A stretch of 64,000 bases of DNA, taken from the NCBI GenBank assembly GCA_947477885.1, contig CANJUD010000001.1, positions 482,632-546,631 on the forward strand, given 5' to 3'. Every line of letters starts with the position of its first letter. The first letter of the stretch is position 1. This DNA is from Bacteroidota bacterium. Lineage in GTDB: Bacteria > Bacteroidota > Bacteroidia > UKL13-3. Under the pieces are notes generated by a model that searched no databases, was not told the DNA's origin, and worked only from the letters and a program-made list of their open reading frames with translations. Position numbers and translations under genes: made by a program. Of the stretch, positions 8,989 through 13,060 are shown piece after piece.

Positions 8989-11610
8989 CTACTCTAGCAA
9001 CTTAACTATCTTATAAGTAAACTTCTTATCATCGCTGGTAATATGCAATACATATATTGCCGAAGCTAAATCAGTCGTATTAACGGAGAATGTGGCAAAT
9101 TGATTAACGGGTATATTATTATAACTAGCCACTTGCTTGCCGGATATTTCATATAATTGAACATTGATGTTCTGTGTTGTTCTTGAATAAACTGCTATCT
9201 TAAACTCATTGCCGAAAGGGTTGGGATAAACGGATATATTAAATTTACAGTGTTCATCATAGTTTTGCGTAATAACAGTACTATCTTCAACTGTACATCC
9301 GCCATTAGTTTCTTTTACCCAATAAGTACCCGCTTTGGTTAAAATTATATCTTTTGTTGTATCTCCCGTATTCCATTTATAGCGATAACCTGCGGTGGCC
9401 GCAAGTTGTAATACTTCATCGCTGCAAATAAAAGTATCGTTTAACAGTTTTAAATAAGGCCGTGAGTTCAATTGTATTGCAACAGTATCCTGAGTAATGC
9501 ACCCTGTGGCACCTGTTAATATCTGTTTTATGGTATATAAACCCGAATCTTTTTGGTTAAGGTTAAAACCTTTTGGAATTGCTGGTAAATTGGGCTTATT
9601 GATAAAACTGTCTCTTAAAATATGTAAGCCATTGCGTACATAATATTTTTCCGAAACTATGGTATCATTGTATAAAGGTTTTATTTGGAATACTTGTGGG
9701 ATGCAGCCGGTGGTGGGGCTTAGGGTTAAACCTGGCTGGGGGGCAGGGGTGATGTAGATAGGTTGCAATGTAGTGAAGGCGTCTTCACATAATCCGTTAT
9801 AAAAAATGAGCTTAACAATATAGTTCCCACTTTTATTATATATATGCCCGACACTTCCCATACCTATCGACTTAAGAGGACTAGGTGCATATATAATGGT
9901 ATCTGTTCCATCGCCAAAATACCAGTGCCAACTATATGGCACATAGGGAGAATATTTATCAGCATAAGATGAATCTTTAAACAGAATACTCGTATATTGA
10001 CAATGTTTTTCAGGCAAAGTGTAAAAATTTGCAACGGGTGGAGTTTGTGCATATATACTATCGCTGAACCACGCATAATAACCATCCACTGATATGCCTT
10101 TAAGTTTATAATAAATGCCATCCCTTAAATCTGTTATATAGCAAGCATTACCTAAAGTACTATCGAACATGTTCGTATTCCTATTCCACACATACCAAAC
10201 AAAAGACTTATAAACAGAATCAGCATTAGTATATAATGTTGCAGAATTACAGTCAATCTTTTCTACTGTTGACAATAATTTATTAAAATGAATTGGGGAA
10301 TAATTACTGCGGACATCTATATAGAAATTTGCTTGTTCAGCACTATCTGTATTTTTATAAAATGAACTGTCACATATTAATATTGGATAATTTCTGTACA
10401 CTTTACAATAGGGGAAAGGCAAATTAGGCTTTGCTATTACAATTGCAGTTGTGCAATTTACATAAAGATACAATCTCCCTGAAGGATGATTGCTTATGTT
10501 GAATAACCCAACAGTATTGAAAGAATACCCATGGGGTGAGGTTCTGTTTTCGAAAATTGTAGTGTCAAATATTTTTGTCTGCTGTCTATTGAAGATATTA
10601 TATTGATATATTTCTAATACATGATTGTAATTGTAATCTTCTTTGTTATAAGCAATATACACGAAAGTGTCATTGTCAGTTACCGCATAGCTTGAATAAA
10701 AGCTGTTGCTAAAAGTATTAGTTCTGTAAGGCACCTTTTTAAAGTACGGCATTGTGTCAAGTTTATATATGGTGTCAATGGAAGAAAAATCTTCAGATAG
10801 ACGCATTAGATAAATTTTGAAATTACAAATACTATTAGTGTCACTATAATCAGGATACTGTACCAATATAATATTTTTGTTTGCAAATGAAATAAAATTA
10901 TAGTATAGTGGAGATAAATTTAAGTAATAAATGTTCTCATGAAATTTATAAAATGATTTTGATTGAAAAAAAATATTACTGAAATCACACCTATATATTT
11001 CTTGCGAATCTGTAGTTAAAGTAATTAGCTCAAAATATCTGAACTGTTTATCTATAATTATAGAATAGTTTTTCCATCTTTGAATATTTTTTGAAATATT
11101 AACAACAGGTGTATCAGTATAATTGCCACTATTTTTTATAACTCCAAGCAATTTTAATCCATTCTCTATTACTGAAAATTTATTATTAACATAGTTTAGA
11201 TTTAATATATATATATATGAGCTACTTTCAAAAGAAATCTTCTTTGTTAAAGAATCCCTTATTATTATTATATGATAATTTACATCAGATATACTATCAG
11301 GTATAATAAATATCCTGTTAGACAGTTTAACATCGGCACTATCAGATATGATTTTTATTGAATCTTCAGCGGAAGTATATATGTATCTATTCTGTAAATT
11401 AAACCATCCAAGTCTATCTCCTTTTTTATTCCTTATTTCAATATAAGCAGGGTATTTAAAACTTTCAAACCCCAAATTAGATGGCTCCAGTTTGTTGCTA
11501 ATCATCAAACCTTTAGTGTTATTATTGATATGGTATTGATGGTGCATAACCTGTCCATATATTGTAGTTAAACAACAAGCACAATAAAATAATATTAATA
11601 AATATTTCAT
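8989..11610 (-). CDS. Large secreted protein with PKD domain and T9SS tail
   Basis: 873 residues with signal peptide (KYLLILFYCACCLTTIYGQ). The first ~480 residues look like a beta-propeller-like region without a named domain. A PKD domain (about 535-620; SWHWYFGDGTDTI ... SGNYIVKLIFYNG) follows, then an Ig-like segment (SRPYLKLLNDTFICSDE ... TGDTTKDIILTKAGTYWV) and a type A T9SS tail (FNISVYPNPFGNEF ... SAIYVLHI ... YKIVKLLE). It is probably a surface adhesin or matrix protein. A smaller secreted-protein gene lies 61 bases upstream on the same strand. Ligand unknown. Confidence 0.85.
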   Translation of the reverse strand: MKYLLILFYCACCLTTIYGQVMHHQYHINNNTKGLMISNKLEPSNLGFESFKYPAYIEIRNKKGDRLGWFNLQNRYIYTSAEDSIKIISDSADVKLSNRIFIIPDSISDVNYHIIIIRDSLTKKISFESSSYIYILNLNYVNNKFSVIENGLKLLGVIKNSGNYTDTPVVNISKNIQRWKNYSIIIDKQFRYFELITLTTDSQEIYRCDFSNIFFQSKSFYKFHENIYYLNLSPLYYNFISFANKNIILVQYPDYSDTNSICNFKIYLMRLSEDFSSIDTIYKLDTMPYFKKVPYRTNTFSNSFYSSYAVTDNDTFVYIAYNKEDYNYNHVLEIYQYNIFNRQQTKIFDTTIFENRTSPHGYSFNTVGLFNISNHPSGRLYLYVNCTTAIVIAKPNLPFPYCKVYRNYPILICDSSFYKNTDSAEQANFYIDVRSNYSPIHFNKLLSTVEKIDCNSATLYTNADSVYKSFVWYVWNRNTNMFDSTLGNACYITDLRDGIYYKLKGISVDGYYAWFSDSIYAQTPPVANFYTLPEKHCQYTSILFKDSSYADKYSPYVPYSWHWYFGDGTDTIIYAPSPLKSIGMGSVGHIYNKSGNYIVKLIFYNGLCEDAFTTLQPIYITPAPQPGLTLSPTTGCIPQVFQIKPLYNDTIVSEKYYVRNGLHILRDSFINKPNLPAIPKGFNLNQKDSGLYTIKQILTGATGCITQDTVAIQLNSRPYLKLLNDTFICSDEVLQLAATAGYRYKWNTGDTTKDIILTKAGTYWVKETNGGCTVEDSTVITQNYDEHCKFNISVYPNPFGNEFKIAVYSRTTQNINVQLYEISGKQVASYNNIPVNQFATFSVNTTDLASAIYVLHITSDDKKFTYKIVKLLE

Positions 11611-11671: not shown

Positions 11672-12436
11672 TTATGGGCAATTACATGGATCTATAGGAC
11701 AGGGCTGCCCCGGAACTGGGCTATAACCTTGAAAAGTAACCCCTTTGCCACTATGTTTGATGGGGATATCATCTGAGAACTCATTGTACCAAACTTGATT
11801 ACTACCCAACACCCATCCTAAACCTGGGGTGTTACTGTTTACAGCATCAAATGTCCCCTGATATAAATAGTCCCAGCTTGTGGTAGCAATTGTTGGATAA
11901 ACTACAAAAGTATAAATTTGACCATTCCCTGTAGGCAAACAATAGTCGATGCATATATCCCCATTTGCATCTGATGTTAGTGTTTGCGGAGTATTCGGGA
12001 GTATTAAATGCGAAGCAAGGTAGGCTCTTTTTGCGGTTAAATCACTTTCAATCCAATCATCATAAACGCTATAATTAACATTTTGAATATTTAGAACATC
12101 AAATTTGTATTGGCTGTTAGCAGCCAAACCATTATAGCAAACTCTTACCTTCTTCTTTGGACAAGTTGTTGGGGTTGGACAGCAAACTGGGATTACAATA
12201 TTAGAATAATCGTTTGTGTAAGGGGGTACTGGTGCTGTAAAACTTATTGTCGTTGTTGTTCCTGGAGGTGTTCCGTTTGTCCCATCGCATGGAGTGATTG
12301 TCATTTGAGTAGGCTTTTGGTTACTTTGTCCAGTACTACTAGAATAAATTCCAATAAATAGTAAAAGAATCACACAAAATCGCCATCGACCAAATGTCGC
12401 ATTAAGCTGTGTGTGTGTGTGTTGATTTTTCGGCAA
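11672..12436 (-). CDS. Secreted protein of unknown function with an AC-repeat in its start region
   Basis: 254 residues if the TTG at 12436 is used. A hydrophobic signal (RWRFCVILLLFIGIYSSSTGQ) is followed by a Thr/Pro-rich part with Cys pairs (VIPVCCPTPTTCPKKKVRVC; CPIDPCNCP at the end). There is no ATG in frame before the signal. The ATG at 12485 opens a frame that reaches a stop inside the AC tract (12408-12422) one frame off. Adding one AC unit, or losing two, would join it to this coding frame and give a signal peptide with a longer N-region. The gene may be switched by slippage, or the TTG may be the real start. No T9SS tail is obvious. Confidence 0.65.
   Translation of the reverse strand: MPKNQHTHTQLNATFGRWRFCVILLLFIGIYSSSTGQSNQKPTQMTITPCDGTNGTPPGTTTTISFTAPVPPYTNDYSNIVIPVCCPTPTTCPKKKVRVCYNGLAANSQYKFDVLNIQNVNYSVYDDWIESDLTAKRAYLASHLILPNTPQTLTSDANGDICIDYCLPTGNGQIYTFVVYPTIATTSWDYLYQGTFDAVNSNTPGLGWVLGSNQVWYNEFSDDIPIKHSGKGVTFQGYSPVPGQPCPIDPCNCP
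12408..12422. repeat. Dinucleotide microsatellite (TG)7T
   Basis: Fifteen bases of uninterrupted TG (AC on the coding strand), coding for the HTHT segment of the secreted protein at 11672-12436. It lies between an out-of-frame upstream ATG (12485) and the signal peptide, the arrangement of a contingency repeat. Confidence 0.85.
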
Positions 12437-12655
12437 CGGCTGCTATTTCTAGCACGGCTGCATTTTTTGTATTGTTTTTTGTCATAAGGTTTTGTCCATA
12501 CAAATTAGTTCCATAAGCAGGGCAAATATAACCAAAATAGTTACAAAACATTTTTTTTAAAACGGTATGTCAATCCGGGTAAATATAAGAAAAGGATATT
12601 TACATTTGTCTATTCTTCTATAATTCCGAATTACTCGGAACAAGATCACAAAAAG

Positions 12656-13019: not shown

Positions 13020-13060
13020 AAATACTTGCTACTTGCTACTAGCTACTAGATACTATTTAA
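13020..13060. repeat. Dispersed 40-bp degenerate repeat (AATACTTGxTAC family), copy 1
   Basis: AATACTTGCTACTTGCTACT at 13021-13040 and AGCTACTAGATACTATTTAA at 13041-13060. It matches a copy at 19083-19122, upstream of msrB, at about 35 of 40 positions. Internally it is built of degenerate 7-8 base units. It overlaps the last codons of iscU by a few bases and fills most of the iscU-iscA spacer. Confidence 0.75.

Follow-up and report, generated by a model that had tools for sequence, protein, structure and literature searches.

In Helicobacter pylori, the oipA gene carries CT repeats in its signal-peptide region and is subject to on/off phase variation by slipped-strand mispairing (PMC10564699). 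The opa genes of Neisseria carry CTCTT repeats in the region coding for the leader peptide, at several loci per genome, and are switched on and off at the level of translation (PMC3960869). In Bacteroides, the phase variation of surface components proceeds by site-specific DNA inversion, with invertible promoters and an invertase (2025 review, PMC11868660), and it is mainly as DNA inversion that phase variation has been described in Bacteroidota. Where that review deals with Bacteroides, its subject is inversion, and the term "dinucleotide" is absent from it. The literature searched, from which subscription papers are mostly missing, contained no account of phase variation through dinucleotide repeats in Bacteroidota.

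We describe here an AC microsatellite lying between an upstream ATG and the signal peptide of a secreted protein, in a 64,000-nucleotide stretch of Bacteroidota DNA (hereafter, the window). This tract is likely to be a contingency locus operating by slipped-strand mispairing, that is, by translational phase variation, and to be in the OFF state in the assembly, although switching has not been observed. Like oipA, it has a dinucleotide repeat at the 5' end of a (presumed) surface-protein gene, where the gain or loss of a unit shifts the frame. It differs from oipA in its repeat unit (AC instead of CT), in the place of the tract, which is in an N-terminal extension that precedes the signal peptide, in belonging to another phylum, and in that leaders of the window type are common to unrelated mature proteins. 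With opa it shares the position of the repeat, in the leader-peptide coding region, and its occurrence at several loci of one genome. However, the opa repeat is a pentamer and the opa genes form one homologous family, whereas the window and its sister species G002, and likewise two loci of the same-family genome G013, encode unrelated proteins behind one leader. The inversion systems of Bacteroides also vary surface components, and in the same phylum, but the model for the window requires neither inverted repeats nor a recombinase, only a change of repeat number in the coding frame. The mechanism is thus already known from oipA and opa; within the literature searched, its recurrence in Bacteroidota as a leader of unrelated surface proteins seems not to have been described. 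If this is true, Bacteroidota would possess a second route to surface variation, independent of inversion and missed by tools that detect inversions, and secreted genes that look broken or misannotated in many genome assemblies would be accounted for.

Layout of the locus and frame arithmetic

All the features of the locus are on the minus strand of the window. A -7 promoter element of the Bacteroidota type, TATATTTG (12523..12530), lies 37 nt 5' of the probable start codon, ATG 12485 (12483..12485). The latter opens a pre-tract leader frame of 63 nt, MTKNNTKNAAVLEIAAVAEKS (12423..12485), which runs into the proposed switch, an (AC)7A microsatellite at 12408..12422, with (AC)7 at 12422-12409 followed by A 12408. 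Directly 3' of the tract come the conserved sequence GCGACATTT (12392..12400), encoding ATF, the signal peptide RWRFCVILLLFIGIYSSSTGQ (12326..12388, from the translation) and a mature secreted protein of about 217 aa (11672..12325). The locus thus has a tandem simple repeat in its 5' coding region, with a unit whose length is not a multiple of 3.

The frame from ATG 12485 reads MTKNNTKNAAVLEIAAVAEKSTHTHTA and stops at TAA 12404-12402 (12402..12404), giving a 27-aa product at n=7, where n is the number of AC units. The signal-peptide frame, which ends with the stop of the secreted protein at 11672, is one frame off and contains no ATG. From ATG 12485 to the signal-peptide codons CGA TGG CGA the distance is 97 nt, i.e. 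1 mod 3, and therefore n=8 (or 5, or 11) gives a single ORF. When the unit number was varied by script, n=8, n=5 and n=11 yielded ORFs of 271, 269 and 273 aa, respectively, and every other n led to a stop within 25-39 aa. The initial annotation had claimed that the secreted protein (11672-12436) has no in-frame ATG, that the frame of ATG 12485 passes through (AC)7A to stop one frame off at 12404-12402, and that the addition of one AC or the removal of two would join this ATG to the signal peptide. All three claims held, the last one with n=8 and n=5.

The mature protein matched no Pfam family above the cut-off, and its AlphaFold model (mean pLDDT 44) was unusable. The product carries a signal peptide; its location at the cell surface is inferred. 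Downstream lies a partner gene of 873 aa (8989..11610) with PKD and T9SS sorting domains (Pfam), which is probably co-transcribed with the secreted-protein gene.

The tract is not due to chance and recurs in a paralogue

In shuffled 64-kb windows, the ten-base AC sequence ACACACACAC has an expected count of 0.04 per window, and a first-order model predicts about 0.01 occurrence of (AC)7 in the 3.1 Mb genome. (AC)7 is found there exactly twice, both times at the start of one of two paralogous secreted-protein genes; the window tract is not a chance occurrence. The second copy (G000:C1:421383-421396) occupies the same point of the paralogous gene, whose protein is 46% and 40% identical to the window protein, in two pieces. 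The frame from its upstream ATG, MKNIYIENSVNAQGAVMDIHTHTQLRH up to the stop, is again out of frame at n=7 and would be joined at n=8, and a homologue of the partner gene also lies downstream of this leader.

Midway through the paralogue the frame breaks a second time, at an A8 run (L008 5012-5064, G000:C1 about 421.0 kb, minus strand), so that the gene falls into frames of 136 aa and 120 aa; this represents either decay or a second slippage site. In the window itself, a TACTAGC heptamer is repeated 4.7 times at 13023-13055, between an IscA-like and an IscU-like gene.

The leader in related species

Two sister species, G001 and G002, carry leaders that are 75-80% identical in DNA sequence to that of the window, in the same order: -7 box, ATG, 63-nt frame, (AC)n, GCGACATTT, signal peptide. 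The G001 leader, MIKNNTKHAVGLGKAATANNS (G001:C155, locus L007, public contig JANYDJ010000128.1), precedes an orthologue whose protein is 71% identical to the window protein; its tract is (AC)9, out of frame in the direction opposite to that of the window, and would be joined at n=8. The G002 leader, MLKNNTKHAVVLAIAALAKKS (G002:C6), has (AC)8, is also out of frame, and would be joined at n=7 or 10. The mature protein of G002 is unrelated to that of the window, exceeds 750 aa and ends in a T9SS sorting tail; in a BLASTP comparison, the leader motif alone matches. The downstream partner gene of G002 is nonetheless a homologue of the 873-aa gene of the window. A fourth leader, with (AC)5 and an internally deleted gene, was found in G001:C238. 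In this remnant (L022, 2866-3250, minus strand), which sits upstream of a partner-gene homologue, a large internal deletion has left the (AC)5 leader fused to the final portion of a T9SS tail.

In all four leaders (window, G001:C155, G002:C6 and G001:C238), TATATTTG stands 37 nt before the ATG. The Bacteroidota promoter consensus is TTTG/TAnnTTTG; G002 and G001:C238 have a normally spaced -33 TTTG, and the window has a degenerate form of it. Four leader copies of the genus share the motif ATG-x-AAAAACAATACAAAA. In the window, G001:C155 and G002:C6, the frame that runs from the ATG to the tract measures exactly 63 nt, with no stop codon and no indel. Substitutions in this frame do not show a third-position bias in all pairs, and there is no clear codon constraint on the pre-tract residues. 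The number of AC units among the leader copies of the genus is 5, 7, 7, 8 and 9. The joining length is n=8 for the window, the paralogue and the G001 gene, which carry 7, 7 and 9 units, and the four intact copies (these three and G002) are all OFF as assembled.

These comparisons bear on an alternative in which translation begins at TTG 12436 (12434..12436), the one start codon that lies upstream in the signal-peptide frame at n=7. The gene would then be ON at n=7, and the tract would still act as a switch, with another ON length. In its favour, an uninterrupted frame leads from this TTG to the signal peptide, and in the paralogue, too, an in-frame ATG precedes the tract. Against it, the signal-peptide frame of G001 contains no start codon ahead of the tract, the TTG of G002 at the position equivalent to 12436 sits in another frame, and the conserved element is ATG 12485 with its -7 box and spacing, not the TTG. 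We regard this start as unlikely. A TTG start with a neutral tract, as the initial annotation had envisaged, was rejected: the TTG lies upstream of the tract, which falls inside its frame and so would switch the gene in this case too.

The ON form is illustrated within the same family by G013, in which two (AC)7 loci, beginning MKKNIYASKVSKNKNLTHTHTGTIATF and MKKYIYTSKVSKNKNLTHTHTITIATF, are in frame: HTHT-xx-IATF is followed by signal peptides and long proteins unrelated to each other, the shared IATF motif being read in frame. GCGACATTT follows the tract at both G013 loci, as it does in the window, G001 and G002. Two other genomes of the family, G010 (n=11) and G012 (n=8), have the same layout with other leaders, and both are OFF. 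When the AC tract followed by GCGACATTT was searched in 395 genomes of the class, a draw that did not include G001 and G002, the only matches were the window, G013 and one short, probably fortuitous, match.

The initial annotation, which had inferred the layout of a contingency locus and a possible phase switch, held that mixed lengths in raw reads and in relatives, or relatives with the ATG in frame, would support switching, and that a fixed length across strains, or relatives starting at the TTG with no ATG upstream, would refute it. As far as these criteria can be applied, they favour switching, and the inference is supported, the act of switching remaining unobserved. Lengths differ among the leader copies and are not fixed, in-frame relatives exist (the two G013 loci with their (HT)n..IATF motif), and the TTG is not conserved. 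The limit is that the copies of the same gene type (window, paralogue and G001) are all out of frame.

Selection on the coding genes, and the rival readings of decay and programmed slippage

Over the 125 codons compared between the mature parts of the window and G001 genes, 66 of the 106 differences are at third positions; dN is 0.15 and dS is saturated. In a second pair, the loci L177 and L181 of genome G228 (see below), dN/dS is about 0.16. The third-position bias and the low G228 ratio indicate that the genes are kept and are not decaying; the window and G001 genes are under purifying selection.

Decay is the second rival explanation: both copies in the window genome would be frameshifted pseudogenes and the AC tract a relic. 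It is favoured by the additional break of the paralogue at its A8 run, and by G001:C238, where such a locus survives only as a remnant with an internal deletion. However, the window and G002 genes are otherwise intact long frames, and the G001 gene is intact up to the end of its contig; the tract, the promoter box and the 63-nt spacing are kept in each species; and intact ON relatives exist. The biased codon evolution described above also speaks against decay, which we hold to be very unlikely.

The third alternative is a programmed ribosomal or transcriptional slippage on the AC tract, which would join the frames without any change in the DNA. All four intact copies of the genus are out of frame, as such a mechanism would have it, and repeats can promote slippage. 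But the shift needed is +1 in the window and the paralogue, -1 in G001 and G002, and 0 in G013, whereas a programmed site would keep one direction; moreover, the DNA lengths themselves vary. A programmed frameshift gene, for which a constant direction and size of the shift would be required, was therefore rejected, the offsets going both ways, and this possibility can be all but dismissed.

A probable slipped-strand contingency locus

The preferred reading remains that of a contingency locus. A Bacteroidota promoter would drive transcription, and ATG 12485 would be the start codon, from which the ribosome would read 21 leader codons and then (AC)n as His-Thr repeats. With n = 2 mod 3 (5, 8, 11), it would read on through the IATF-like residues and the signal peptide into the secreted protein (ON); with n=7, as assembled, it would meet the TAA after 27 codons (OFF). 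The OFF state may also lower the expression of the downstream T9SS partner gene by polarity. The benefit would be surface variation, in the evasion of phage, grazers or immunity, or in adhesion. The layout, the frame arithmetic, the conservation, the differences in length between homologous copies, the existence of relatives in the ON frame and the purifying selection are established. That the tract slips during replication in vivo, that translation in vivo begins at ATG 12485, that surface variation is the benefit and that there is a polar effect on the downstream gene are inferences.

The locus satisfies what is expected of a contingency locus: a frame-breaking repeat, the toggling of an ORF by repeat number, a tract above chance that is restricted to such genes, variation in repeat number with both ON and OFF forms, and a secreted or surface product. 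The variation in repeat number is to be understood here as variation between species and paralogues, as there was one genome per species and there were no reads, and hence no lengths within a population. Counting against this reading, a tract of seven units is short if it is to be a fast dinucleotide switch, all four intact copies of the genus are OFF, and the pre-tract codons show no clear constraint.

AC-tract leaders across the Bacteroidia

In a class-wide pattern search, ATG followed by (AC)>=8 gave matches in 29 of the 395 genomes. Since the reversed pattern used as a control also matched in some genomes, not every such tract is meaningful, and those with no long ORF behind them were left aside in what follows. 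The pattern search of viral contigs yielded no match. Other leaders of the Bacteroidia, with (AC)8-42, precede FimA/Mfa2-like, SprB-repeat, OmpA/DUF3575 and T9SS-tail proteins, and several genomes reuse a leader of their own. In G228, a search for D(AC)9 revealed five AC tracts on one 3.29 Mb contig (n=23, 42, 23, 9 and 17), all behind VKYVNMFAxLNNFAN, and two of the five genes score as Mfa2 and FimA fimbrial proteins. Two of these loci, L177 and L181, have the same sequence over the 110 nt that precede the tract and the 60 nt that follow it, but carry n=23 and n=17, respectively, which means that the length of the tract changes faster than its flanks. Two copies in G324 (n=20 and 19) and paralogues in G224 (n=10 and 17) are in opposite off frames, and in one genus of another family three species have n=8, 12 and 16.

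ON loci were found in G013 and G219. Overall, 4 of the 23 scored loci are ON, against one third expected (P about 0.08, not significant); this mild excess of OFF loci is unexplained and leaves room for an unrecognised start.

On balance, we lean towards a bolder reading, to be taken as a whole: Bacteroidia would commonly carry a modular phase-variation leader, made up of a promoter, a start codon, a short N-terminal extension and (AC)n; this leader would be copied within the genome and attached to unrelated fimbrillins, gliding-type proteins and T9SS-tailed proteins; and one hypermutable N-terminus would in this way randomise the surface repertoire.

Some further observations were made on these genomes. 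The five G228 loci (L168, L173, L177, L179 and L181) look like a multi-locus phase-variable fimbrial set. In G224, several contigs stop shortly after an AC-tract leader (L153, L155, L154), suggesting that the assembly breaks at a repeated leader family, and further copies have probably been collapsed or are missing. G122 and G189 (L136, L137, L170, L174) contain repeated short ATG-(AC)10-13 units, behind which there is a conserved stretch of about 45 codons but no long ORF.
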